DNA from: Clostridiales bacterium
GTDB taxonomy: Bacteria; Bacillota; Clostridia; Christensenellales; Aristaeellaceae
NCBI GenBank assembly: GCA_015056155.1
Contig: SVGU01000023.1
Span: 1-34,981 of the forward strand
Length of the DNA stretch: 34,981 nucleotides
Direction: 5' to 3'
Shown: positions 1 to 33,743 of the stretch, piece by piece
Layout: each line of letters begins with the position of its first letter
Position numbering within the stretch: the stretch's first letter is position 1
Position numbers and translations under genes: made by a program
Notes under the pieces: generated by a model
Told to the model about the DNA's origin: nothing
What the model saw: the letters and a program-made list of their open reading frames with translations, nothing else
The model's database searches: none

Positions 1-209
1 GGGGTCATCGACAGGATGCAGCCGGTCTCCAGCAGCGCGGCGGTGGCCTTCTCCGCGTCGTCCACGATCAGGCGCAGCACGCCGTAATCCTTGGTTTCAG
101 CGATGTTGAGAGCCCGCAGGTTCACGTTCTTGTCCGCCAGCAGACGAGTGATCTCCGCCAGCTGACCGGCACGGTTCTCCAGGAAGATGGAAATCTGATG
201 AACGCTCAT
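1..209 (-). CDS. ACT-domain protein, 3' end outside the window (last gene seen of the ior-paaK operon)
   Basis: The visible 69 residues begin MSVHQISIFLENRAGQLAEI and read as one ACT domain: a beta strand, then the ENRAGQL helix start typical of amino-acid-binding regulatory domains, then a second strand around VNLRALNIAE. A ribosome site (GGAGG, about position 218 on the minus strand) precedes the ATG at 209. The gene follows paaK by 15 bases. Stand-alone ACT proteins are common next to paaK and iorAB in anaerobes. From the family I infer that it binds an aromatic amino acid or a related ligand and modulates the pathway; no ligand can be read from the sequence. The C-terminal part lies outside the window. 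Confidence 0.85.
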   Translation of the reverse strand, partial: MSVHQISIFLENRAGQLAEITRLLADKNVNLRALNIAETKDYGVLRLIVDDAEKATAALLETGCILSMT

Positions 210-224
210 TGTGTTACACCTCCA

Positions 225-1523
225 TCAAATCTTACGCTTGTCGATGACGCGCACGGCCTTGCCCTCGGAGCGGGTGATGCTCTTGGGGGAGACGATGCGC
301 ACCTTGGCGTAGATGCCCAGCATGGCCTTGAGCGCGCCGACGAGGGTCTTCTCCTGCTCGGCGATATCCGCCAGGGAGTCGGAGAACTTGTCGGGAGCCA
401 TCTCGACCAGGACTTCCAGGGTGTCGGAGTGGTTCACACGGTCGACCACGATCTGATAGTTGGCCGGATAGCCCTGCTCCATCAGCACGGTCTCGATCTG
501 GGACGGGAACACATTCACGCCCTTGATGATGAGCATATCGTCGCTGCGGCCCATGGGCTTGGACATCTTCACATGGGTGCGGCCGCAGGCGCACTTCTTG
601 CGGCTCAGCACGCAGATATCGCGGGTGCGGTAGCGCAGGAGGGGGAAGGCTTCCTTGGTGATGGAGGTGAAGACCAGCTCGCCCTTCTCGCCCTCGGGCA
701 GCACTTCGCCCGTTTCGGGGTTGATGATCTCGGCGATGAAGTGGTCCTCATTGATGTGCATGCCGGTCTGCTCGCAGCATTCGAAGGCGACGCCGGGGCC
801 GGAGGTCTCGGTCAGGCCATAAATATCGTAGGCCTTGATGCCCAGACGGCTTTCGATATCGTGACGCATTTCCTCGGACCAGGCTTCCGCACCGAAGATG
901 CCGGCCTTGAGCTTGATCTTGTCGCGCAGGCCCGCCTCCTCGATGGATTCGGCCAGGTACTGCGCATAAGAGGGCGTGCAGCAAAGGATCGTGGCCTCCA
1001 GATCGGTCATGAAGGTCAGCTGACGCTCGGTGTTGCCCGAGGACATCGGCAGAGTCAGGCAGCCCACCTTGTGGGAGCCGCCGTTGAGGCCGGGGCCGCC
1101 GGTGAACAGGCCGTAGCCATAAGCGACCTGCACCACGTCTTCGTTCGTGCCGCCGGCGGCGACGATCGCGCGGGCGCAGCAGTCTTCCCACAGGTCGACG
1201 TCGTGCTGGGTGTAGAATGCGACCACGCGGCGGCCGGTGGTGCCGGAGGTGGACTGGATACGCACGCAGTCCTTCAGCGGCTTGGCGCACAGGCCATAGG
1301 GATAAGCGTCGCGCAGGTCGGCCTTGGTCAGGAAGGGCAGCTTGTGCAGATCGTCAACGCTCTTGATATCGGCGGGGGTCACGCCCTTCTCCTCCATCTT
1401 GGCGCGGTAGTAGGGGACGTTGTCCCATACATGCTGCACCTGCTTGACGAGGCGATCGTTCTGCCATGCCAGGATCTGCTCCCGCGATGCGGTCTCGATC
1501 TCCGGCTGGTAATAATTTGCCAT
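225..1523 (-). CDS. paaK: phenylacetate--CoA ligase (PaaK family)
   Basis: This 432-residue cytoplasmic adenylate-forming enzyme joins an arylacetate (phenylacetate or indoleacetate) to CoA with ATP, releasing AMP. Visible marks are the P-loop STSGTTGRR (about residue 91), the YGLTETSGPG motif, the LRYRTRDI motif, a Cys cluster (CACGRTH) and the GRSDDMLIIKGVNVFPSQIE hinge typical of PaaK. The length matches the family. I chose the ATG at 1523 rather than an in-frame ATG nine bases upstream, because GGGAG then sits at a normal distance. It lies 79 bases after iorB in the T-box operon. With IorAB it can link arylacetates to arylpyruvates. Substrate preference among aryl acids is not visible. 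Confidence 0.93.
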   Translation of the reverse strand: MANYYQPEIETASREQILAWQNDRLVKQVQHVWDNVPYYRAKMEEKGVTPADIKSVDDLHKLPFLTKADLRDAYPYGLCAKPLKDCVRIQSTSGTTGRRVVAFYTQHDVDLWEDCCARAIVAAGGTNEDVVQVAYGYGLFTGGPGLNGGSHKVGCLTLPMSSGNTERQLTFMTDLEATILCCTPSYAQYLAESIEEAGLRDKIKLKAGIFGAEAWSEEMRHDIESRLGIKAYDIYGLTETSGPGVAFECCEQTGMHINEDHFIAEIINPETGEVLPEGEKGELVFTSITKEAFPLLRYRTRDICVLSRKKCACGRTHVKMSKPMGRSDDMLIIKGVNVFPSQIETVLMEQGYPANYQIVVDRVNHSDTLEVLVEMAPDKFSDSLADIAEQEKTLVGALKAMLGIYAKVRIVSPKSITRSEGKAVRVIDKRKI

Positions 1524-1602
1524 GGTGATCATCTCCCATTATAGTGTAACGTCGCTCACGGCGTTCAGGGTACACGGAAAGGGGAAACGGGGGCGGCGTC
1601 CC

Positions 1603-2175
1603 TCAGGCCTCGCGGCCCAGCAGGAATGCCTTTTTGTTCAGCTCGAGGAACTTGGCAGGCACGCTCTTTTCGATGGCCTCCATCCACTCCTCGAGGGTGA
1701 AGTCGAAGCTGCGGCTCAGGTGGCCCATCAGGACGATGTTGACCGCCTTGGTGCTGCCGGCCTGCTCGGCCAGGGACAGCGCGTCAAAGGCGTCCACGTC
1801 GATACCGGCGGCCTTCATCTTCTCTGCCAGATTCTCGGGATACTGCGCCGCGCCGGTGATGACGGGCATGGGGTTGATCTGCTGGGTGTTGACGACCAGC
1901 TTGCCATCCGGCTTCAGGTACTCCGTCCAGCGGGCGGCCTCCAGCAGCTCAAAGGACACGATGTAGTCTGCCTCGCCCTTGTCGATGACGGGGGAATACA
2001 CCTTGTCGCCGAAGCGGACGTAGGTGACGACGCTGCCGCCGCGCTGGGACATGCCATGCACCTCGGAAACCTTGATGTCATAGCCCTTGGTCAGCAGCAG
2101 GCGGCCCAGGAGCTTCGAGGCCAGAAGGCTGCCCTGACCGCCGACGCCGACGATCATGATATTGGAAGTTTTCAT
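1603..2175 (-). CDS. iorB: indolepyruvate ferredoxin oxidoreductase, beta subunit
   Basis: This 190-residue subunit matches the gamma-type domain of 2-oxoacid:ferredoxin oxidoreductases. It starts with the IMIVGVGGQGSLLASKLLG signature, and SEVHGMSQRGGSVVTYVRFG follows at about residue 37. It works with IorA to interconvert arylpyruvates and aryl-acetyl-CoA plus CO2, using ferredoxin electrons. Its ATG is one base after the iorA stop, and its AGGAGG ribosome site lies in the last codons of iorA, so the two are translationally coupled. No Fe-S motif is present here; the clusters are in IorA. Length and motifs are normal for the family. Confidence 0.95.
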   Translation of the reverse strand: MKTSNIMIVGVGGQGSLLASKLLGRLLLTKGYDIKVSEVHGMSQRGGSVVTYVRFGDKVYSPVIDKGEADYIVSFELLEAARWTEYLKPDGKLVVNTQQINPMPVITGAAQYPENLAEKMKAAGIDVDAFDALSLAEQAGSTKAVNIVLMGHLSRSFDFTLEEWMEAIEKSVPAKFLELNKKAFLLGREA

Positions 2176-2176
2176 A

Positions 2177-3928
2177 TTATTCAGCCTCCTTGAGTGCGCC
2201 GAAGTGGCACAGCTGTACGCACACGCCGCAGCCGGTGCACTGGGTGTGATCGACGACGGCCTTGACCTTGCCGTCGGCAGCGGGCTGCATGGAGATCGCC
2301 GGGCAGCCGATCTTCATGCACAGCTTGCAGGAGCGGCACTTGTCGCTGTCCACGGTGACAGGCTTCGAGTGCTTGACGTACTTGAGCAGCGCGCAGGGAC
2401 GGCGGCTGATGATGACGGACGCTTCGGGAGCGGCCAGCTCCTCCTTGATGGCGGTCTCGGTCTGCTCCAGATTGTAGGGATCGACCACGCGCACGCGGCG
2501 GATACCGACCGCGCGGCAGAGCGTTTCGAGGTCGATCTTCGTGCAGGGATCGCCCTTGAGGTTCATGCCGGTGGTGGGGTTCTGCTGGTGGCCGGTCATG
2601 CCGGTGATGGAGTTATCGACGATGATGATCGTCGCGTTGGACTCGTTGTAGGCCACGTTCACCAGGCCCGTGATGCCGGAATGCATGAAGGTGGAGTCGC
2701 CGATGACGGCCACGGTCTTGCCGTCCGCCGCGCCTTCGAGGGCCTTGACGAAGCCGTGGGTGCCGGAGATGGACGCGCCCATGCAGATGACGGAGTCCAC
2801 CGCGCCCAGCGGCGGCACAGCGCCCAGTGTGTAGCAGCCGATGTCACCCAGGACGGTGATCTTGTTCTTTGCCAGGGTGTAGAACAGACCGCGATGGGGG
2901 CAGCCGGCGCACATGACCGGGGGACGGGCGGGGATCGCATCGTCCACCTTGCAGCCTGCGCAGGGGGCATCCATGCCCAGCTTTTCGGCGACGAGGTTCT
3001 GGCTGAATTCGTCGATCACGGGGAACACGTTTTTGCCCGTGACCTTCAGGCCCAGCGCGTCGCAGTGCGCCTCGATGAAGCTGTCCAGCTCCTCGACCAC
3101 GACCAGTTCTTCGACGGACGCGGCGAAATCGCGGATCTTCTTCTCCGGCATCGGCCAGATCATGCCCAGCTTCATCACCGGGTACTTGTCGCCGCAGACC
3201 TCCTTGACATACTGGTAGGCAGTGGAGGAGGTGATGATGCCGCGGGAGTGATCGCTGCCGTCCTCGACGCGGTTGATGTCGGCCGTCTCCGCCCACTCGA
3301 CGAGGGCGCGGGTGCGGGCTTCGACCACAGGGTGACGCTTCTTGGCGTTGCCGGGCATCATGATGTACTTGGCGGGGTTCTTTTCGTAGGTCTTCACGGC
3401 CTCCACGCGCTCGCCGCACTCCACGACGCTCTGGCTGTGGCTGACACGGGTGCACATCTTCAGCAGCACCGGGGTGTCGAACTGCTCGGACAGGTCATAC
3501 GCGAGCTTGGCAAAGGCGATCGCCTCGGCGGAATCGGCAGGCTCCAGCATCGGGATCTTCGATGCGCGCGCATAGTGGCGGGAATCCTGCTCGTTCTGGG
3601 AGGAATGCATGCCCGCGTCGTCCGCAACGCCGATGACCATGCCGGCGTTCACGCCCGTGTAGGCGATGGTGAACAGCGGGTCGGCGGCGACGTTCAGGCC
3701 CACGTGCTTCATGCCGCAGAAGCTGCGCTTGCCGGCAAGGGACGCACCAAAGGCGGATTCCATCGCGACCTTCTCGTTGGGGGCCCACTCGGCGTAGACC
3801 TCCTGGTACTTCGCGACTGCCTCGGTGATCTCGGTGGAGGGGGTTCCGGGGTAGCTGGATACGAAGGCGCATCCGGCTTCATAGAGTCCGCGGGCAACTG
3901 CTTCGTTGCCCAGCATAAGCTGCTTCAT
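2177..3928 (-). CDS. iorA: indolepyruvate ferredoxin oxidoreductase, alpha subunit
   Basis: This 583-residue thiamine-diphosphate subunit is complete. The N-terminal pyruvate-oxidoreductase-like domain begins LMLGNEAVARGLYEAG and contains SYPGTPSTEI. The TPP domain carries CAGCPHRG, then GDIGCYTLGAVPPL, and the cofactor-binding GDSTFMHSG with VDNSITGMTGHQ. The last 60 residues hold two ferredoxin clusters: Cys 531, 534, 537, 542 (the short CX2CX2CX4CP form known in IOR) and Cys 564, 567, 570, 574. I chose the ATG at 3928 because AGGAGG lies 8 bases before it; a longer frame to 3958 has no such site. It can oxidise arylpyruvates or run backwards as a reductive carboxylase. The Phe T-box upstream favours the reductive reading. 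Confidence 0.95.
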   Translation of the reverse strand: MKQLMLGNEAVARGLYEAGCAFVSSYPGTPSTEITEAVAKYQEVYAEWAPNEKVAMESAFGASLAGKRSFCGMKHVGLNVAADPLFTIAYTGVNAGMVIGVADDAGMHSSQNEQDSRHYARASKIPMLEPADSAEAIAFAKLAYDLSEQFDTPVLLKMCTRVSHSQSVVECGERVEAVKTYEKNPAKYIMMPGNAKKRHPVVEARTRALVEWAETADINRVEDGSDHSRGIITSSTAYQYVKEVCGDKYPVMKLGMIWPMPEKKIRDFAASVEELVVVEELDSFIEAHCDALGLKVTGKNVFPVIDEFSQNLVAEKLGMDAPCAGCKVDDAIPARPPVMCAGCPHRGLFYTLAKNKITVLGDIGCYTLGAVPPLGAVDSVICMGASISGTHGFVKALEGAADGKTVAVIGDSTFMHSGITGLVNVAYNESNATIIIVDNSITGMTGHQQNPTTGMNLKGDPCTKIDLETLCRAVGIRRVRVVDPYNLEQTETAIKEELAAPEASVIISRRPCALLKYVKHSKPVTVDSDKCRSCKLCMKIGCPAISMQPAADGKVKAVVDHTQCTGCGVCVQLCHFGALKEAE

Positions 3929-3970
3929 GGGGATAACCTCCTGATATTGCTGGAGCATTGGCTCAGAGGG

Positions 3971-3997
3971 CGGCGCGGCAGGAGTGCTGCCGTGCCG
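3971..3997 (-). other. hairpin between the symporter gene and iorA
   Basis: Eleven-base arms (3971-3981 and 3987-3997) around a 5-base loop form a GC-rich hairpin in the 94-base gap. No T-tract follows on either strand, so it is not a standard terminator. Such hairpins can stabilise the 3' end of a processed upstream message; that is only a possibility here. Confidence 0.45.
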
Positions 3998-4022
3998 TCT
4001 TGCTGAACCACCAGCTGGTTGA

Positions 4023-5609
4023 TTACCTGGTTTTGGTGGAACCTGCTTCTTCGCCGATGGAGTCGGTCACGTGCACAGTCACCGTCCTGTCGTAGCAGGA
4101 GAAGACGTTCTCGACGTGGGCCTTGTCCAGCTTCGGGGTGATGAGGCTGACGACGGGGACGATGACGAGGCCTGCGATCATGCAGAAGGCGCCGGCGTTG
4201 ATGGGGCTCTGCAGGATGGTCGGGAAGGCGCTCTTCGCCACGACGTTGGCCAGCATGACCACGGTGGAGAAAATGAAGGAGCACCAGACGGACGCTCTGG
4301 TGGTGCGCTTCCAGTACAGGCCGTAGAGGAAGGGGGCGAGGAATGCGCCGGCCAGCGCGCCCCAGGAAACGCCCATCAGCTGAGCGATGAAGGTAACGGC
4401 GGACTTGTGCTGCACGATGGCCAGCACGACGGAGATGGCGATGAACACCACGATCAGCGCGCGCATGACCAGCAGCTGCTTCTTCTCGTCCATGTTCTTG
4501 ACGAGCTTGCCCTTGATGAAGTCAAGCGTCAGGGTGGAAGAGGAGGTCAACACGAGGGAGGACAGCGTGGACATCGAGGCCGCCAGCACCAGCACGATCA
4601 CCAGGGCGATCAGCACCGTGGGCAGGCCCTCCAGCATCGTGGGGATGACGGAGTCGTAGTTGGGCCTGGCAGGATCCATGTTGATCTGTTCGGCATACAG
4701 TCGGCCGAAGCCGCCCAGGAAGTAGCAGCCGCCGGCGACGATCGCCGCGAAAATGGTGGAGATGATCATGCCCTTTCCGATCTGCTTCTCGCTCTTGATG
4801 GCGTAGAATTTCTGCACCATCTGGGGCAGACCCCAGGTGCCGAGGCTGGTCAGGATGACAACGCCCAGCAGGTTCACCGGGTCGGGGCCGAAGAAGGAGG
4901 CGAATGCGCCCGGGGTACCGTCCAGCGGCATGCCCGTGCCCTCCACGGGGATCTTGCCCAGCTCGCTCAGCGCGTTGAGGAAGCCGCCGTTGGCGCTCAG
5001 CACCGCCGCGATCACCGCAACGATGCCAACGATCATGATGATGCCCTGGATGAAGTCGTTGATGGCCGTGGCCATGTAGCCGCCAGCGATGACATAAATG
5101 GCCGTCAGCACTGCCATGATGATCACGCACCAGGCATAATCAATGGAGAAAGCCATGGCGAAGAGGCGGGACAGGCCGTTGTAGAGGGAGGCGGTGTAGG
5201 GGATGAGGAAGATGAATACGATGGCCGAGGCGGCGAGTTTGAGCGCGGGGCTCCTGAAGCGCGCCTGGAAGAACTGCGGCATGGTGGCCGAATCAAGATG
5301 CTGCGTCATCACGCGGGTGCGGCGTCCCAGCACGGCCCATGCCAGCAGGGAACCCAGCAGCGCATTGCCGATGCCGGCCCAGGTGGCGGCGATGCCGTAC
5401 TTCCAGCCGAACTGGCCGGCATAGCCGACGAACACGACCGCGGAGAAGTAGGAGGTGCCATACGCGAAAGCCGTCAGCCACGGGCCGACCGAGCGTCCGC
5501 CCAGAACGAAGCCGTTCACGTCTGTGGAGTGCTTGCGGCAGTACAGGCCGATACCGATCGTAACGGCAAAGAACACGAAGAGCATACCCAATTTGATGAC
5601 CAGATCCAT
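4023..5609 (-). CDS. sodium:solute symporter (SSS/SLC5 family)
   Basis: This 528-residue integral membrane protein has about 13 hydrophobic segments, beginning LGMLFVFFAVTIGIGLYC. Family marks are the FVLGGRSVGPWLTAFAYGTSYFSA region near residues 34-55, the GGYMATAINDFIQGI helix, and the WGLPQMVQKFYAIKSEK loop typical of PutP/PanF-like transporters. It should couple solute uptake to the sodium gradient. The start at 5609 has GGAAGGAG in front. The substrate cannot be read from sequence. Its place between a CoA ligase and iorA-iorB-paaK suggests an aryl or other organic acid such as phenylacetate, or an aromatic amino acid. Confidence 0.9.
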   Translation of the reverse strand: MDLVIKLGMLFVFFAVTIGIGLYCRKHSTDVNGFVLGGRSVGPWLTAFAYGTSYFSAVVFVGYAGQFGWKYGIAATWAGIGNALLGSLLAWAVLGRRTRVMTQHLDSATMPQFFQARFRSPALKLAASAIVFIFLIPYTASLYNGLSRLFAMAFSIDYAWCVIIMAVLTAIYVIAGGYMATAINDFIQGIIMIVGIVAVIAAVLSANGGFLNALSELGKIPVEGTGMPLDGTPGAFASFFGPDPVNLLGVVILTSLGTWGLPQMVQKFYAIKSEKQIGKGMIISTIFAAIVAGGCYFLGGFGRLYAEQINMDPARPNYDSVIPTMLEGLPTVLIALVIVLVLAASMSTLSSLVLTSSSTLTLDFIKGKLVKNMDEKKQLLVMRALIVVFIAISVVLAIVQHKSAVTFIAQLMGVSWGALAGAFLAPFLYGLYWKRTTRASVWCSFIFSTVVMLANVVAKSAFPTILQSPINAGAFCMIAGLVIVPVVSLITPKLDKAHVENVFSCYDRTVTVHVTDSIGEEAGSTKTR

Positions 5610-5646
5610 GATGTTTCTCCTTCCGTACTACATGATCTACTTAGAA

Positions 5647-5740
5647 AACAGGAACGCCCTGTTGTCTACCAAACTACAATGCTACCCATCCGCCGCAGCG
5701 CGCGGCGAAAACTACAATTCCGGATCCCGATCCGGCATCC
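5647..5740 (-). other. 134-base operon spacer with three small hairpins and a short direct repeat
   Basis: Between the CoA ligase stop and the symporter start, the minus strand holds GATCCGG-ATG-CCGGATC, then CGCCGC-GCGCT-GCGGCG, then AACAGG-GCGTT-CCTGTT followed by TTCT. The plus strand carries the repeat AACTACAAT twice. None is a convincing full terminator. They could tune expression between the first gene and the rest of the operon. No promoter is evident. Confidence 0.35.
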
Positions 5741-5743
5741 GGA

Positions 5744-7378
5744 TCAACCCGTGATCTGGGATTCCACCAGCCTGCCCTTGCAGTACCTCTCGCGCAGCGC
5801 GGGCTTTTCGATCTTGCCGGTGGGGTTGCGGGGCACCTTGTCAAAGATGACCTTGCGGGGGCGCTTGTACCGGGGCATGCCCTCGCAGAAGCGGTTGATC
5901 TCCTCCTCTGTGCATTCGGTATCTTCCTTGACCTCGACGATCGCCGCGGCGATCTCGCCAAGACGCGGGTGGGGGAGGCCGATGACCGCCACGTCCTTGA
6001 TCTTGTCGAAGCCGCGCATGAAGTTCTCGATCTCGACCGGGTACAGGTTCTCGCCGCCGGAGATGACCACGTCCTTCTTGCGGTCCACCAGCCAGATGAA
6101 GCCGTCCTCATCCATGCGGGCCATGTCGCCGGTGTAGAGCCAGCCGTCCTTCAGGACCTCGTTGGTCGCTTCTTCATTCTTGTAGTAGCACAGCATCACG
6201 CCGTCGCCCTTGACGGCCAGCTCGCCCACGTCGCCCTGCGGCACCTCGCAGCCCTTTGGATCGACGATCTTCGCTGCCCAGTTGTAGCCGGGCTTGCCGA
6301 TCGCGCCGACCTTGTGGACGTTCTCCACGCCCAGGTGCACGCAGCCGGGGCCGATGGACTCGGACAGGCCGTAGTTGGTGTCGTACTGGTGGTGGGGGAA
6401 GAGCTTGAGCCAGCGGGCCACCAGGCTCGGCGGGACGGGCTGGGCGCCGATGTGCATCAGGCGCAGCTGATCGAGGTAGTAGTCATCCAGATTGATGCGG
6501 CCCGCGTCGATGGCGTCCAGCAGGTCCTGGCACCACGGCACCAGCAGCCACACGATGGTGCAGCGCTCCTCTGTGACTGCCCGCAGGATCCACTCGGGCT
6601 TCACGCCGCGCAGCAGCACGGCCTTGCTGCCGGAGAGCAGGCTGCCGAACCAGTGCATCTTCGCGCCCGTGTGATACAGCGGCGGAATGCACAGGAACAC
6701 GTCCTCGCGGGTTTGACCGTGGTGATTCTGCTCCACCTCGCAGGAATAGGCCAGCGCGCGGTGGTTGTGCAGGATCGCCTTGGGGAAGCCGGTTGTGCCG
6801 GAAGAGAAGTAGATGGCGGCGTAGTCCTTCTCCGTCAGCGCCACGGGCGGGGCGGAGGTGGAGCAGTAGCCCATCAGCTTCAGGCAGTCCTCGGTGTAGG
6901 CGGGGCCGTTCTTGCCGACGAAGAAGGTGTAGCGGAGGTTGATCTGATCGGCGATCAGGTCCATGCGGGTGATGAACTCCGGGCCGAAGATCAGCACCTC
7001 CACGTCCGCCAGGTCAAGGCAGTACCTGATCTCCTCCGCGGAGTAGCGGAAGTTCATCGGCACGGCGATGCAGCCGGCCTTGAGGATGCCGAAGTAGACC
7101 GGCAGCCACTCCAGGCAGTTCATCATCAGGATCGCGCACTTGGTGCCCCGCTGGATGCCGCGGCTGAGCAGCAGGTTGGCGAAGCGGTTGGCGCGGCGGT
7201 CGAAATCTGCCCAGGAGATCTCGCGGCGGTAGGGGGCATCCGGGTTGGCGCTCTCGATCAGGTTGTAATCGCGCCAGGTGACGGCGTTGTCGCGCTCCTC
7301 GGAGGGATTGATCTCCACCAGCGCAGTCTCCATGCCCCACAGCCGGGCGTTCCGTTCCAGGTATTCGGTGATCAGCAT
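5744..7378 (-). CDS. AMP-forming acyl/aryl-CoA synthetase (class I adenylate-forming enzyme)
   Basis: First gene of the T-box operon, 544 residues. The core motifs are present: the phosphate loop YFSSGTTGFPKAI, YGLSESIGPG, GWLYTGDMARMDEDG with DRKKDVVISGGENLYPVEIE, and a C-terminal NPTGKIEKP bearing the catalytic lysine. It therefore activates a carboxylic acid as an acyl-AMP and transfers it to CoA. The ATG at 7378 is preceded by AAGGAG at 9 bases. The open frame continues upstream through the T-box, but that part is untranslated leader. The substrate is not visible; because paaK follows in the same operon, it probably handles a different acid. CoA ligase is likelier than a peptide-synthetase-like role, as there is no carrier domain. 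Confidence 0.9.
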   Translation of the reverse strand: MLITEYLERNARLWGMETALVEINPSEERDNAVTWRDYNLIESANPDAPYRREISWADFDRRANRFANLLLSRGIQRGTKCAILMMNCLEWLPVYFGILKAGCIAVPMNFRYSAEEIRYCLDLADVEVLIFGPEFITRMDLIADQINLRYTFFVGKNGPAYTEDCLKLMGYCSTSAPPVALTEKDYAAIYFSSGTTGFPKAILHNHRALAYSCEVEQNHHGQTREDVFLCIPPLYHTGAKMHWFGSLLSGSKAVLLRGVKPEWILRAVTEERCTIVWLLVPWCQDLLDAIDAGRINLDDYYLDQLRLMHIGAQPVPPSLVARWLKLFPHHQYDTNYGLSESIGPGCVHLGVENVHKVGAIGKPGYNWAAKIVDPKGCEVPQGDVGELAVKGDGVMLCYYKNEEATNEVLKDGWLYTGDMARMDEDGFIWLVDRKKDVVISGGENLYPVEIENFMRGFDKIKDVAVIGLPHPRLGEIAAAIVEVKEDTECTEEEINRFCEGMPRYKRPRKVIFDKVPRNPTGKIEKPALRERYCKGRLVESQITG

Positions 7379-7410
7379 CGTGAATAACTCCTTGTATACA
7401 TTATACCGTG

Positions 7411-7642
7411 AAAGAAAAAAGCCTCTGCACATGCAGAGGACGGGCAATGCCGTGGTACCACCTCGATTCGCCGCAGCACGCAAGCAGCGGCCTCGATCGC
7501 GCGGTATCGGGCGCACCCGTCACGGCCTACTCATGTTTCGACCGGAGGCTCGGCAGTGAATTCGTCGCTGTGCCGTCCGCTGCCTCGCACCTGCCGGCAG
7601 CTCTCTGAGGACGTTCTGGAGCGATTACTTGTCTGCGTCATC
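7411..7642 (-). ncRNA. T-box riboswitch, specifier UUC (tRNA-Phe)
   Basis: Read on the minus strand, Stem I starts GATGACGCAG at 7642. The loop-E strands are AGTA (7626-7629) and GAA (7561-7563). Immediately 3' lies the specifier UUC (7558-7560), flanked by the expected A and closed by GCAG (7633-7636) pairing with CUGC (7553-7556). The apical AGAGAG is at 7601-7606. The GAGTAGGCC...ACGGG Stem III region follows. The conserved T-box AGGTGGTACCACGG is at 7450-7463, with UGGU fitting tRNA position A73, as in tRNA-Phe. A terminator (CCTCTGC/GCAGAGG, 7422-7439) and a T-rich tract (7411-7420) end it. In this family uncharged tRNA stabilises the antiterminator, so the operon should switch on when phenylalanine is short. 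Confidence 0.93.
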
Positions 7643-7660
7643 GCACGTATTTCAGTCAAT

Positions 7661-7689
7661 ACTTTACCATTTCCGACAAGGAAAGTCAA
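7661..7689 (-). promoter_or_regulatory. promoter of the T-box operon
   Basis: TTGACT (7684-7689 on the minus strand), a 17-base spacer and TAAAGT (7661-7666) form a vegetative-type promoter. Transcription would start near 7654, just before Stem I of the T-box. Confidence 0.7.
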
Positions 7690-20976: not shown

Positions 20977-21005
20977 TTGCGTTTCGGTCAAAAGTGTGAT
21001 ATAAT
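20977..21005 (+). promoter_or_regulatory. promoter of rex
   Basis: TTGCGT (20977-20982), a 17-base spacer and a perfect TATAAT (21000-21005) precede rex by about 55 bases. A TGTTAA half-site follows at 21011-21016, but no full Rex palindrome is seen, so autoregulation is not supported. Confidence 0.75.
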
Positions 21006-21060
21006 CCATCTGTTAAGCACAATCAAAAACGCTTTTGCTTCAGATAAAGGAGGAACGGGC

Positions 21061-21699
21061 ATGGCAGGTCGAGTTTCCGATGCTGTGATCCGTCGTTTGC
21101 CGGGTTACTATCGTCATCTTCGCGAGCTGGAGGCTGCGGGCGTGACCCAGATCTCATCGCATGAGCTGGGAGAGCGGATGAACCTCACGCCCTCGCAGAT
21201 CAGACAGGACATCAACTGCTTCGGCGGCTTCGGCCGTCAGGGCTATGGCTACCGGGTGTCGGAGCTGAAGGGTCACATCGGTGAGATCCTCGGCCTGACC
21301 AGGGAGCATCGGGTCATCATCATGGGCGCGGGCAACATCGGCTGCGCCGTGGCGAGGTACCCGAGCTTCTCCCGCGAGGGCTTCCGGACGATCGCGATGT
21401 TCGATGTGGCGGAGGAGAAGGTCGGGCGCGAGCTGGACGGCATTCCGGTCTACCACATTGATCATCTGGAGGAGTTCCTCCGGGAGCATCCGGTGGATAT
21501 CGCCGTGCTGGCTTTGCCGAAGCGGTTTTCCTACGAAACGCTCAAGCGCCTCTACGATTGCGGTGTGCGGGCAATCTGGAATTTCGCTCCGGCAGATCTG
21601 CCGCATCCGCAGGACATGCTCGTGGTCAATGTCCACCTGATGGACAGCCTTCAGCAGCTGTCGTATCGCATGGCCCACAGGGATGATGACTTATCTTAA
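21061..21699 (+). CDS. rex: redox-sensing transcriptional repressor Rex
   Basis: A complete 212-residue Rex. The N-terminal winged helix contains VIRRLPGYYRHLREL, LTPSQIRQDINCFGGFG and RQGYGY. The Rossmann domain has the NADH-binding GAGNIGCAVARY near residue 89. The C-terminal domain-swapped helix ends in MDSLQQLSYRM. Rex leaves DNA when the NADH/NAD ratio rises and derepresses fermentation genes in Firmicutes. The ATG at 21061 has AAGGAGG in front. The gene has its own promoter and terminator. No clear Rex operator was noticed elsewhere in this window. Confidence 0.97.
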   Translation: MAGRVSDAVIRRLPGYYRHLRELEAAGVTQISSHELGERMNLTPSQIRQDINCFGGFGRQGYGYRVSELKGHIGEILGLTREHRVIIMGAGNIGCAVARYPSFSREGFRTIAMFDVAEEKVGRELDGIPVYHIDHLEEFLREHPVDIAVLALPKRFSYETLKRLYDCGVRAIWNFAPADLPHPQDMLVVNVHLMDSLQQLSYRMAHRDDDLS

Positions 21700-29571: not shown

Positions 29572-30402
29572 ATGAACATTGCGATTATCGGACTGGGCCT
29601 CATTGGCGGCTCGCTGGCGCGTACCATCAAGCTGCGCACGGCACATCAGGTGTACGGCTGCGACCTGAACCCGCAGACCATCCAGCAGGCGTTCCTGATG
29701 GAGGCGATCGACGCGGAGCTGACGGACGAGCTCCTCGGCGGCTGCGATCTGGTGCTGGTCAGCCTGTATCCCGGCGCGATCGTCGACTGGGTGAAGGCCC
29801 ATGCGGACCGCTTCAGGCCCGGCTGCCTGGTGATCGACTGCGGCGGCGTGAAGCAGCATATCTGCGAGGCGCTGGTGCCGCTGGCCCGGGCAGGGAAGTG
29901 GCATTTCCTCGGCGGTCATCCCATGGCCGGCCGGGAGCATTCCGGCTTCCGCTATGCCAAGGACGATCTGTTTGACGGCGCGAGCATGATCCTGTGCACC
30001 GACGGCCTGGACGAGCCGGAGCTGCTGCAGGAGGCGCGGGACTTCTTCCTCGACCTGGGCTTCCGCCGCGTCCAGTTCACCAACCCCAAAACCCATGACG
30101 AGATGATCGCCTATACCAGCCAGCTGGCGCATATCGTTTCCAGCGCGTATGTGAAGTGCCCCCTGGCCGACAAGCACCGCGGCTTTTCCGCCGGCAGCTT
30201 CGCGGACATGACCCGCGTCGCCAAGCTGAATGAGGGCATGTGGACGGAGCTGTTTTTCGACAACCGGGAGGCCCTCCTGCCGGTGGTGGAGGATCTGGTG
30301 CAGCGGATGACCGAATACCGGGATGCGCTGCGGGACGGCGACCGGGACGGGATGATGCGCCTGCTCCGGGAGGGCCGGGAAACCAAGGAACGCCTGATGT
30401 AA
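29572..30402 (+). CDS. tyrA: prephenate dehydrogenase
   Basis: The 276-residue enzyme oxidises and decarboxylates prephenate to 4-hydroxyphenylpyruvate with NAD, the committed step to tyrosine. It has the Rossmann motif IIGLGLIGGSLA (5-16), VIDCGGVKQ, the active-site FLGGHPMAGREHSG with the catalytic His, and the helical TSQLAHIVSSAYV domain. There is no ACT or chorismate-mutase domain, so it is the short monofunctional form. It is followed 23 bases later by the DUF523 gene. Its presence shows that Tyr is made de novo even though the first operon suggests a by-pass for Phe. Confidence 0.93.
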   Translation: MNIAIIGLGLIGGSLARTIKLRTAHQVYGCDLNPQTIQQAFLMEAIDAELTDELLGGCDLVLVSLYPGAIVDWVKAHADRFRPGCLVIDCGGVKQHICEALVPLARAGKWHFLGGHPMAGREHSGFRYAKDDLFDGASMILCTDGLDEPELLQEARDFFLDLGFRRVQFTNPKTHDEMIAYTSQLAHIVSSAYVKCPLADKHRGFSAGSFADMTRVAKLNEGMWTELFFDNREALLPVVEDLVQRMTEYRDALRDGDRDGMMRLLREGRETKERLM

Positions 30403-32708: not shown

Positions 32709-32726
32709 TAGAGGAGGTATGTGATA

Positions 32727-33743
32727 ATGGCTCTGTTTGAAAATTACGAAGGCCGCATGCCTCAGCTGCAGCCTGTTCTGGATAAGTACGGCTTCGCCTC
32801 TTGGGAGGACCTGAAGAAGTTCAACAACGAGCACGGTGTTGACGGCTACGGCATCACCGAGGGCATCCAGCCCATCTGCTTCGAGAACGCCAAGTGGGCG
32901 TACGAGCTGGGCGCCGGCATCGCTCTGAAGAAGGGCGTCAAGACCGCCAAGGAAGCCGCTGTGTGCATCGGCGAGGCTCTGCAGGCCTTCTGCATCCCCG
33001 GCTCCGTTGCTGACCAGCGTCAGGTCGGTCTGGGCCACGGCAACCTGGGCGCCATGCTGCTGGACGAGTCCACCGAGTGCTTCGCCTTCCTGGCTGGCCA
33101 CGAGTCCTTCGCGGCTGCTGAGGGCGCCATCGGTATCGCCCGCAACGCCAACAAGGTTCGTCAGAACCCCCTGCGCGTCATCCTGAACGGCCTGGGTAAG
33201 GACGCCGCCATGATCATCTCCCGTATCAACGGCTTCACCTACGTGCAGACCAAGTATGACTACCTGTCTGCCGACGTGAAGGAAGATCACGCGCTGACCG
33301 TCGTCGCCAAGACCGCCTACTCCGATGGCGAGCGTGCGAAGGTCAACTGCTACGGCGCTGATGACGTCCGCGAGGGCGTTGCCATCATGTGGCACGAGGG
33401 CGTTGGCGTTTCCATCACCGGTAACTCCACCAACCCCACCCGCTTCCAGCACCCCGTTGCCGGCACCTACAAGAAGGAAATGACCGAGGCTGGCAAGAAG
33501 TACTTCTCCGTCGCTTCCGGCGGCGGCACCGGCCGTACCCTGCATCCCGACAACATGGCTGCCGGCCCCGCCTCCTACGGCATGACCGACACCCTGGGCC
33601 GTATGCACTCCGACGCTCAGTTTGCCGGTTCCTCCTCCGTGCCTGCGCACGTTGAGATGATGGGCCTGATCGGCATGGGCAACAACCCCATGGTTGGCGC
33701 TACCGTCGCCGTGGCTGTGGCTGTGGAGAACGCTCAGAAGTAA
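32727..33743 (+). CDS. GGGtGRT protein family
   Basis: The 338-residue protein carries the name motif SGGGTGRT at residues 264-271 and begins MALFENYEGRMPQLQPVLDK. Other blocks are GSVADQRQVGLGHGNLGAML and TECFAFLAGHESFAAAEGA. No function is established for the family (PF14057 by recollection). It has cysteines at 51, 80, 89, 118 and 208 that could bind metal, but no classic cluster motif. The ATG at 32727 has GAGGAGG 9 bases before it. It follows the scaffold-like gene by 18 bases, the same pairing seen in other Clostridia. The rich, even codon use (many GCT/GTT/CGT mixed with GGC/AAC) suggests high expression. Confidence 0.9.
   Translation: MALFENYEGRMPQLQPVLDKYGFASWEDLKKFNNEHGVDGYGITEGIQPICFENAKWAYELGAGIALKKGVKTAKEAAVCIGEALQAFCIPGSVADQRQVGLGHGNLGAMLLDESTECFAFLAGHESFAAAEGAIGIARNANKVRQNPLRVILNGLGKDAAMIISRINGFTYVQTKYDYLSADVKEDHALTVVAKTAYSDGERAKVNCYGADDVREGVAIMWHEGVGVSITGNSTNPTRFQHPVAGTYKKEMTEAGKKYFSVASGGGTGRTLHPDNMAAGPASYGMTDTLGRMHSDAQFAGSSSVPAHVEMMGLIGMGNNPMVGATVAVAVAVENAQK

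Follow-up and report, generated by a model that had tools for sequence, protein, structure and literature searches.

A phenylalanine T-box ahead of an arylacetate ligase and indolepyruvate oxidoreductase operon: probable synthesis of aromatic amino acids from arylacetates

Does an indolepyruvate:ferredoxin oxidoreductase (IOR) that is encoded beside an AMP-forming arylacetate ligase make aromatic amino acids or break them down? For gut anaerobes this is openly argued (PMC13285125, in the part drawn on here), and it is raised again by an operon of a Clostridiales bacterium (assembly GCA_015056155.1). The window that we analysed is the whole of its contig SVGU01000023.1 (34,981 nucleotides, contig C63), one of 158 contigs in a 2.9 Mb metagenome-assembled genome (MAG) that is about 74% complete. 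The operon has genes for two CoA ligases, a sodium:solute symporter (SSF), IorA and IorB, and an ACT-domain protein, and in front of them is a T-box leader that reads as specific for phenylalanine. T-boxes allow expression as long as the cognate tRNA lacks its amino acid (PMC7778990), and genes under such control should supply that amino acid. We think it likely that this operon reductively carboxylates arylacetates to Phe and Tyr, rather than serving in degradation.

That the leader is a T-box with UUC in the specifier loop had been proposed in a first-pass annotation, and both parts hold. The RNA at 7650-7433 on the minus strand was identified by cmscan as a T-box, with 113 bits against the RF00230 gathering score of 93, and with our own covariance model R1, which was built including this leader, it scores 179.8 bits. 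In lower Stem I GCAG pairs with CTGC (7556-7553), the bulge ahead of CTGC terminates in GAA-UUC-A, and a single A (7557) separates the codon from the helix. By the TBDB rule bulge positions 2-4 from the end take priority, here called the +0 frame (PMC7778990), and in that frame the sequence gives UUC, for Phe, as the specifier. The leader also has a mutually exclusive terminator and antiterminator, and the UGGU bulge of the latter fits the UGGN requirement.

UGGU had also been held to fit A73 of tRNA-Phe. It is present, but A73 is common among tRNAs, so that it supports Phe only weakly, and we rejected it as proof of Phe identity. Six relatives have a tRNA-Phe with anticodon GAA, the A73 there being read by eye, while none was found in the incomplete MAG itself (33 tRNA matches, 30 taken as loci, 25 of them through ARAGORN; a pattern search was empty). 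The leader of genome G049 (L124:2718-2946) has a UUC specifier with a UGGC bulge, yet the tRNA-Phe of that genome has A73.

The specifier was calibrated on T-boxes with known targets, by searching 49 pheS, tyrS and trpS-type loci of relatives; NCBIfam models were used to check identity for L314 (pheS), L333 and L336 (tyrS) and L346 (trpS), the other trpS-type loci being outside that check. There is a T-box at 22 of the 24 pheS loci, and all 22 have UUC at the equivalent place, as judged by eye. Two complete tyrS leaders have UAC there, and at trpS-type loci eight leaders have UGG. The geometry of the IOR-operon leaders recurs in GAAUAC of the tyrS leader of G020 and in GAAUGGG of the trpS leader of G054. 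Within the genome of the window, seven of the eight other T-boxes precede a gene for an aminoacyl-tRNA synthetase that fits the specifier in one of the two frames, +0 or -1, using best or second-ranked helices and synthetases named by eye (TrpS also matched PF00579). IleS, TrpS and ValS fit in the +0 frame, as do SerS and LeuS with the second-ranked helix, and MetG and ThrS fit in the -1 frame. A required purine after the specifier, which is present in all seven of these controls, was dropped as an argument, as pheS leaders have C there.

We then have to ask how general the association is, and for this iorA loci were surveyed in two sets (G numbers are genomes and L numbers loci). The first comprised 60 loci from 59 genomes, taken from 80 IorA matches outside the MAG, with second copies, fragments and five genomes (G029, G059, G071, G078 and G098) omitted. 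A scan of the 60 upstream stretches by the general Rfam model, taking matches of E 0.01 or better, shows a T-box on the operon strand in eight, all read as aromatic. In the case of G010 and G017 the contig scanned was the other one, holding the front part of a split iorA, and on that of G017 no T-box was found. The second set comprised 80 named iorA loci among the matches listed, less L164 and L165, which duplicate G016 and G009, and it was searched with R1. This model may miss very different T-boxes because it was built from the first nine leaders, all aromatic; it did detect pheS, tyrS and trpS leaders and one Thr leader. Nine further leaders were found, in eight loci.

With the window included there are 18 leaders in 17 operons among 139 loci, with none found at 115 and seven loci not judged. 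Seven leaders are read as Phe (UUC: the window, G049, L166, the second leader of L171, L184, L194 and L197), ten as Tyr (UAC: G007, G010, G008, G054, G018, G020, L170, the first leader of L171, L180 and L243), one as Trp (UGG: G038) and none as non-aromatic. A search for Phe T-boxes before iorA or paaK in other Clostridia had been advised, and among the loci surveyed here six besides the window have one ahead of an iorA-type operon. G038 has an IorA of a 40%-identity type, of which the survey took only this copy. T-boxes at L182 (UGG, on the other strand and not ahead of IOR genes) and L219 (Thr, distant and on the other strand) were left out of the count. That at L182 (2443-2685, minus strand), which reads as Trp, directly follows a paaK-ACT pair of its own strand.

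These calls come from an anchored helix search, used instead of an unanchored one that was noisy, and in the +0 frame with the best or tied-best helix it gives Phe or Tyr for 16 of the 18 leaders. G054 and G038 read as Tyr and Trp in the -1 frame only (G038 with the third-ranked helix), and are called aromatic because they resemble tyrS and trpS leaders. In an alignment of the first nine leaders (A1) the proportion of paired cells is 90.7%, compared with 75.9 +/- 1.5 for shuffles, and 25 pairs are altered on both sides, a number reached in 0 of 500 shuffles, although the consensus structure was derived from A1 itself, which favours covariation support. In the helix that bounds the specifier bulge all four pairs covary.

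A quick IorA tree, in which many branches are weak and that of G038 is very long, requires at least 13 changes in the presence of a T-box; for the specifier state of the 17 rows the minimum is 7. The nearest kin of the window on this tree, G007 and G010, have UAC at the same place. For the window itself Phe stands as the specifier, but Phe as the scope of the pathway is probably too narrow, as there is an aromatic series; with UAC in G007 and G010 only one base away, a pathway for arylacetates in general fits better.

The genes named in the first-pass annotation agree with our profile searches (Table 1). The first ligase has the FadD5 and FadD13 fatty-acyl-CoA ligases as its closest solved structures. 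For the second ligase the top solved-structure matches are PaaK enzymes, and it has a domain of the AMP-binding_C_2 fold family, but it does not reach the cut-off of the PaaK equivalog TIGR02155 (495.7 against 646.3 bits) and is therefore named PaaK-like. IorB passes NF005325 and misses the older model TIGR03334 (188 against 206 bits). The symporter reaches the cut-off in none of the ten NCBIfam models listed, PutP types ranking best and then PanF types, and is assigned to the SSF superfamily only. As the window is the entire contig, the ACT gene is truncated, relatives having a full-length protein of about 143 aa, and nothing beyond it can be seen. The description of the pathway here as complete was thus too strong, given that no aminotransferase is visible in the window and the contig ends within the ACT gene.

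Table 1. Features of the window and of three groups of related loci
Feature	Position	Strand	Basis
Promoter-like site, TTGACT-17 nt-TAAAGT	window 7661..7689	-	sequence motif
T-box leader RNA (RF00230)	window 7433..7650	-	cmscan 113 bits, E 1.8e-24, model 1-219 complete
Specifier triplet UUC (Phe)	window 7558..7560	-	geometry like pheS, tyrS and trpS T-boxes of relatives
Antiterminator, UGGU bulge at 7460-7457	window 7436..7465	-	
Intrinsic terminator, 7-bp stem (7439-7422) then T6	window 7415..7439	-	CCTC common to terminator and antiterminator
Gene 1, AMP-binding acyl-CoA ligase, 544 aa	window 5744..7378	-	PF00501 E 2.9e-73, and PF13193
Sodium:solute symporter (SSF), 528 aa, presumed importer	window 4023..5609	-	PF00474 E 3.9e-59
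iorA, indolepyruvate (arylpyruvate):ferredoxin oxidoreductase alpha subunit	window 2177..3958	-	TIGR03336 690 bits, cut-off 651
iorB, beta subunit	window 1603..2175	-	NF005325 284 bits, cut-off 230; PF01558
PaaK-like arylacetate-CoA ligase, 435 aa	window 225..1532	-	PDB 2y27 E 1.5e-120, 4r1l E 7.7e-119; PF14535 E 2e-29
ACT-domain protein, truncated at contig end	window 1..209	-	PF19571 E 4.3e-13 on 5' part
Prephenate dehydrogenase (canonical Tyr route), same window as the operon	window 29572-30402	+	PF02153 and PF20463
L171 T-boxes, Tyr and Phe, within one arylacetate/IOR cluster	L171 4927-5163 and 8677-8916		
TrpR-like gene	L184 5457-5768; L194 8654-8962; L197 8627-8941		PF01371

Other loci are informative on this point. 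Six loci have a class I/II aminotransferase gene behind the cluster and in the same orientation, namely L071 (which is G020), L073 (a weak match, 67 bits), L167, L170, L171 and L243. Four of the six (G020, L170, L171 and L243) have a T-box, and in these ligase, IOR and aminotransferase are within one regulated unit. G020 has a Tyr T-box followed by ligase, iorAB and aminotransferase, and in this genome (88% complete) chorismate synthase was found, while prephenate dehydratase and dehydrogenase were not. In L171, from an uncultured member of the Eubacteriales (CASEOA010000016), the cluster is split: ligase and symporter follow a Tyr T-box, and iorAB, PaaK-like ligase, ACT protein and aminotransferase have a Phe T-box of their own, directly before iorA. 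L184, L194 and L197 have a gene of the TrpR superfamily between the Phe T-box and iorA.

In the mechanism that we propose, the T-box would sense tRNA-Phe and control the operon by transcription attenuation, uncharged tRNA-Phe favouring the antiterminator, so that the operon is read, and charged tRNA-Phe the terminator. The T-box, its UUC specifier, the terminator and antiterminator, the gene families and the recurrent association of aromatic T-boxes with these genes are seen in the sequences; the substrates, the importer role, the direction of flux and feedback through the ACT protein are what we infer. The operon would import arylacetates (phenylacetate and probably also 4-hydroxyphenylacetate), the AMP-forming ligases would convert them with ATP to arylacetyl-CoA, IorAB with reduced ferredoxin and CO2 would give the arylpyruvates, and an aminotransferase would give Phe or Tyr. 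The view of the operon as a source of Phe or its precursor, already put forward for this locus, gains comparative support from the 18 aromatic leaders and the four operons with an aminotransferase, the direction of flux being the part that is inferred.

The chemistry of reductive carboxylation is already known, as are T-boxes, IOR and PaaK-like ligases, and there are several systems for comparison, considered here on the passages of the papers that were available to us. In the rumen Phe is made from phenylacetate (cited in PMC7356843), which is the same net reaction as proposed here; genes and regulation do not figure in the passages on it. Methanococcus maripaludis makes aromatic amino acids from aryl acids by IOR (Porat et al., cited in PMC4162585); the IorAB family and the proposed reaction are alike, but that pathway is archaeal, and it is in the present loci that one operon under a T-box includes a symporter and paired ligases. 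In Bacteroides an IOR is beside an AMP-forming arylacetate ligase and a biosynthetic role was proposed on the argument that such ligases typically favour the acyl-CoA direction (PMC13285125). The direction was thus argued there from ligase energetics, whereas the present loci provide independent evidence from a starvation-sensing RNA. Clostridium difficile has iorAB beside an aromatic aminotransferase gene in the cluster CD2382-iorAB-butK, but with a butyrate kinase (butK) and under SigL, in contrast to the AMP-forming ligases and T-box described here (PMC7438776). The T-boxes of pheS, tyrS and trpS in the same family share the RNA architecture of ours, with similar specifier geometry and the same UUC, UAC and UGG, but control synthetases, not an operon of arylacetate ligase, IOR and importer. 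We found no description of a T-box linked with indolepyruvate, phenylacetate or iorA in open-licence PMC papers, TBDB and subscription papers being outside the search, and in that literature there was likewise nothing on recurrent control of this operon by aromatic T-boxes, on a Phe/Tyr/Trp series or on the split cluster of L171.

With regard to other explanations, the operon could degrade aromatic amino acids in a Stickland-like manner, from Phe through phenylpyruvate and phenylacetyl-CoA to phenylacetate, with the T-box a relic or serving another purpose. This would fit the absence of a detected T-box in 115 of the 132 judged rows and the report of IOR in conversion of Phe to phenylacetate by Bacteroides thetaiotaomicron (cited in PMC13285125), which also counts against our own conclusion. 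We nevertheless consider it unlikely, as a T-box activates genes when the amino acid is scarce, which is the wrong sign for degradation, and the degradative clusters of C. difficile and C. scatologenes have acyl kinases where AMP-forming ligases are found here (PMC7438776, PMC13285125, in the parts drawn on). Nor does a relic fit well with 18 of 18 leaders being aromatic with the antiterminator motif kept, and with covarying stems in the first nine. The operon could instead be a Phe-regulated unit for uptake of aromatic amino acids or peptides, with ligases and IOR serving other ends (arylacetyl-CoA or reduced ferredoxin). T-boxes often control amino-acid transporters, and PutP types, followed by PanF types, are the best matches of the symporter, none above cut-off. 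However no symporter was seen in the T-box operons of L166, L180, G020 and G054, in G018 it is replaced by an MFS transporter that is nearest to lactate and oxalate/formate types (best match a lactate MFS transporter, under cut-off) and suits a carboxylate, and one T-box of L171 stands directly before iorA, so that we regard an uptake unit as quite improbable. The remaining alternative is that the specifier is one base upstream, which would make these isoleucine T-boxes (AUU for UUC, AUA for UAC) and have IorAB form or break down branched 2-oxo acids. The -1 frame is indeed used by the MetG and ThrS T-boxes of the genome, and AUU and AUA are both Ile codons. Against this, the same AUUC precedes the Phe synthetase gene in eight pheS leaders (L301, L302, L304, L305, L307, L309, L310 and L311), L184, L194 and L197 carry GAAAUUUCA, which is Phe in both frames, and GAAUAC occupies this position in the tyrS leader of G020. 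Further, the PaaK-like ligase and IorA are of arylacetate and arylpyruvate families, and among Ile specifiers AUU and AUA account for about 1% each, with UUC and UAC making up 99% of those for Phe and Tyr (PMC7778990). On the pheS leaders and the three IOR leaders that are Phe in both frames the isoleucine specifier was rejected, and we give it very little chance indeed.

Reductive carboxylation remains the best reading, on the sign of T-box control, the energetics of the ligases, the kinases of the degradative clusters and the precedents from rumen and M. maripaludis, but several observations weigh against it. The +0 rule alone misreads two of the seven own-genome controls (MetG and ThrS, which need the -1 frame) and gives no aromatic call for G054 or G038; the UGGC bulge of G049 is a mismatch to A73; the symporter and first ligase are putative as to substrate; and the 18 leaders are not independent, because the 17 operons are related. 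The genome of the window has prephenate dehydratase and dehydrogenase and also chorismate synthase, and the operon would therefore be a supplement and not the sole source. Over 100 genomes no link was found between presence of IOR and loss of prephenate dehydratase, IorA being in 15 of the 23 genomes without the dehydratase and 50 of the 77 with it. Both prephenate enzymes are present in six of the nine T-box genomes searched; in the other three, of 80-94% completeness, neither was found in G020 and G038, and in G008 there was no match for the dehydratase and a sub-threshold one for the dehydrogenase (24.1 against 26.5 bits).

Also on that side is the lack of any T-box found at the ligase-SSF-iorAB-PaaK-ACT operon of eight genomes of the same genus (G001, with two copies, G002, G005, G006, G009, G012, G015 and G016), from which it follows that the operon can run without T-box control. 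A promoter like that of the window is ahead of the first ligase in several genomes of the genus, both with and without a T-box, and as most of the operons without one sit behind such a promoter, the T-box resembles a cassette that has been inserted between promoter and gene, or lost from there. The promoter block is kept ahead of the first ligase, with no T-box found, at L044, L046, L047, L048 and L050-L054, in most as TTGACT..TGTC..GGTA(A/G)AAT, and conservation of the bases that separate -35 from -10 may point to an operator.

Elsewhere in the window there are a small signal recognition particle RNA (RF00169, 14090-14188), a gene for a protein with CoA_binding and Put_DNA-bind_N domains (20977-21699), which we take to be a Rex-like redox repressor, and one for a GGGtGRT protein (PF14057, 609 bits, 32721-33743), all on the plus strand.

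A wider proposal can be made tentatively, and we hold it at somewhat less than even chances. Gut Oscillospirales and their kin would have an aromatic regulon that harvests the arylacetates of neighbours for Phe, Tyr and Trp, with one base of the specifier tracking the substrate. The FadD-like first ligase would be the enzyme for 4-hydroxyphenylacetate, as it follows all ten Tyr leaders but three of the seven for Phe, and in four Tyr operons (G008, G018, G020 and G054) no other ligase was seen, and the PaaK-like ligase would be that for phenylacetate; the split of L171 under separate Tyr and Phe T-boxes is also drawn on for this division. Switching between UUC and UAC in orthologous operons would then retune the pathway by point mutation of the sensor, and such a single-base switch offers a clean natural test of T-box specificity.

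The starvation-sensing RNA in 17 related operons is evidence on the sign of regulation that is independent of enzyme energetics. Phenylacetate and 4-hydroxyphenylacetate feed the phenylacetylglutamine and p-cresol pools of the host. If our conclusion is true, annotation of iorA and paaK as degradation genes would be wrong for taxa that have the T-box, and some gut bacteria would consume both arylacetates instead of producing them.

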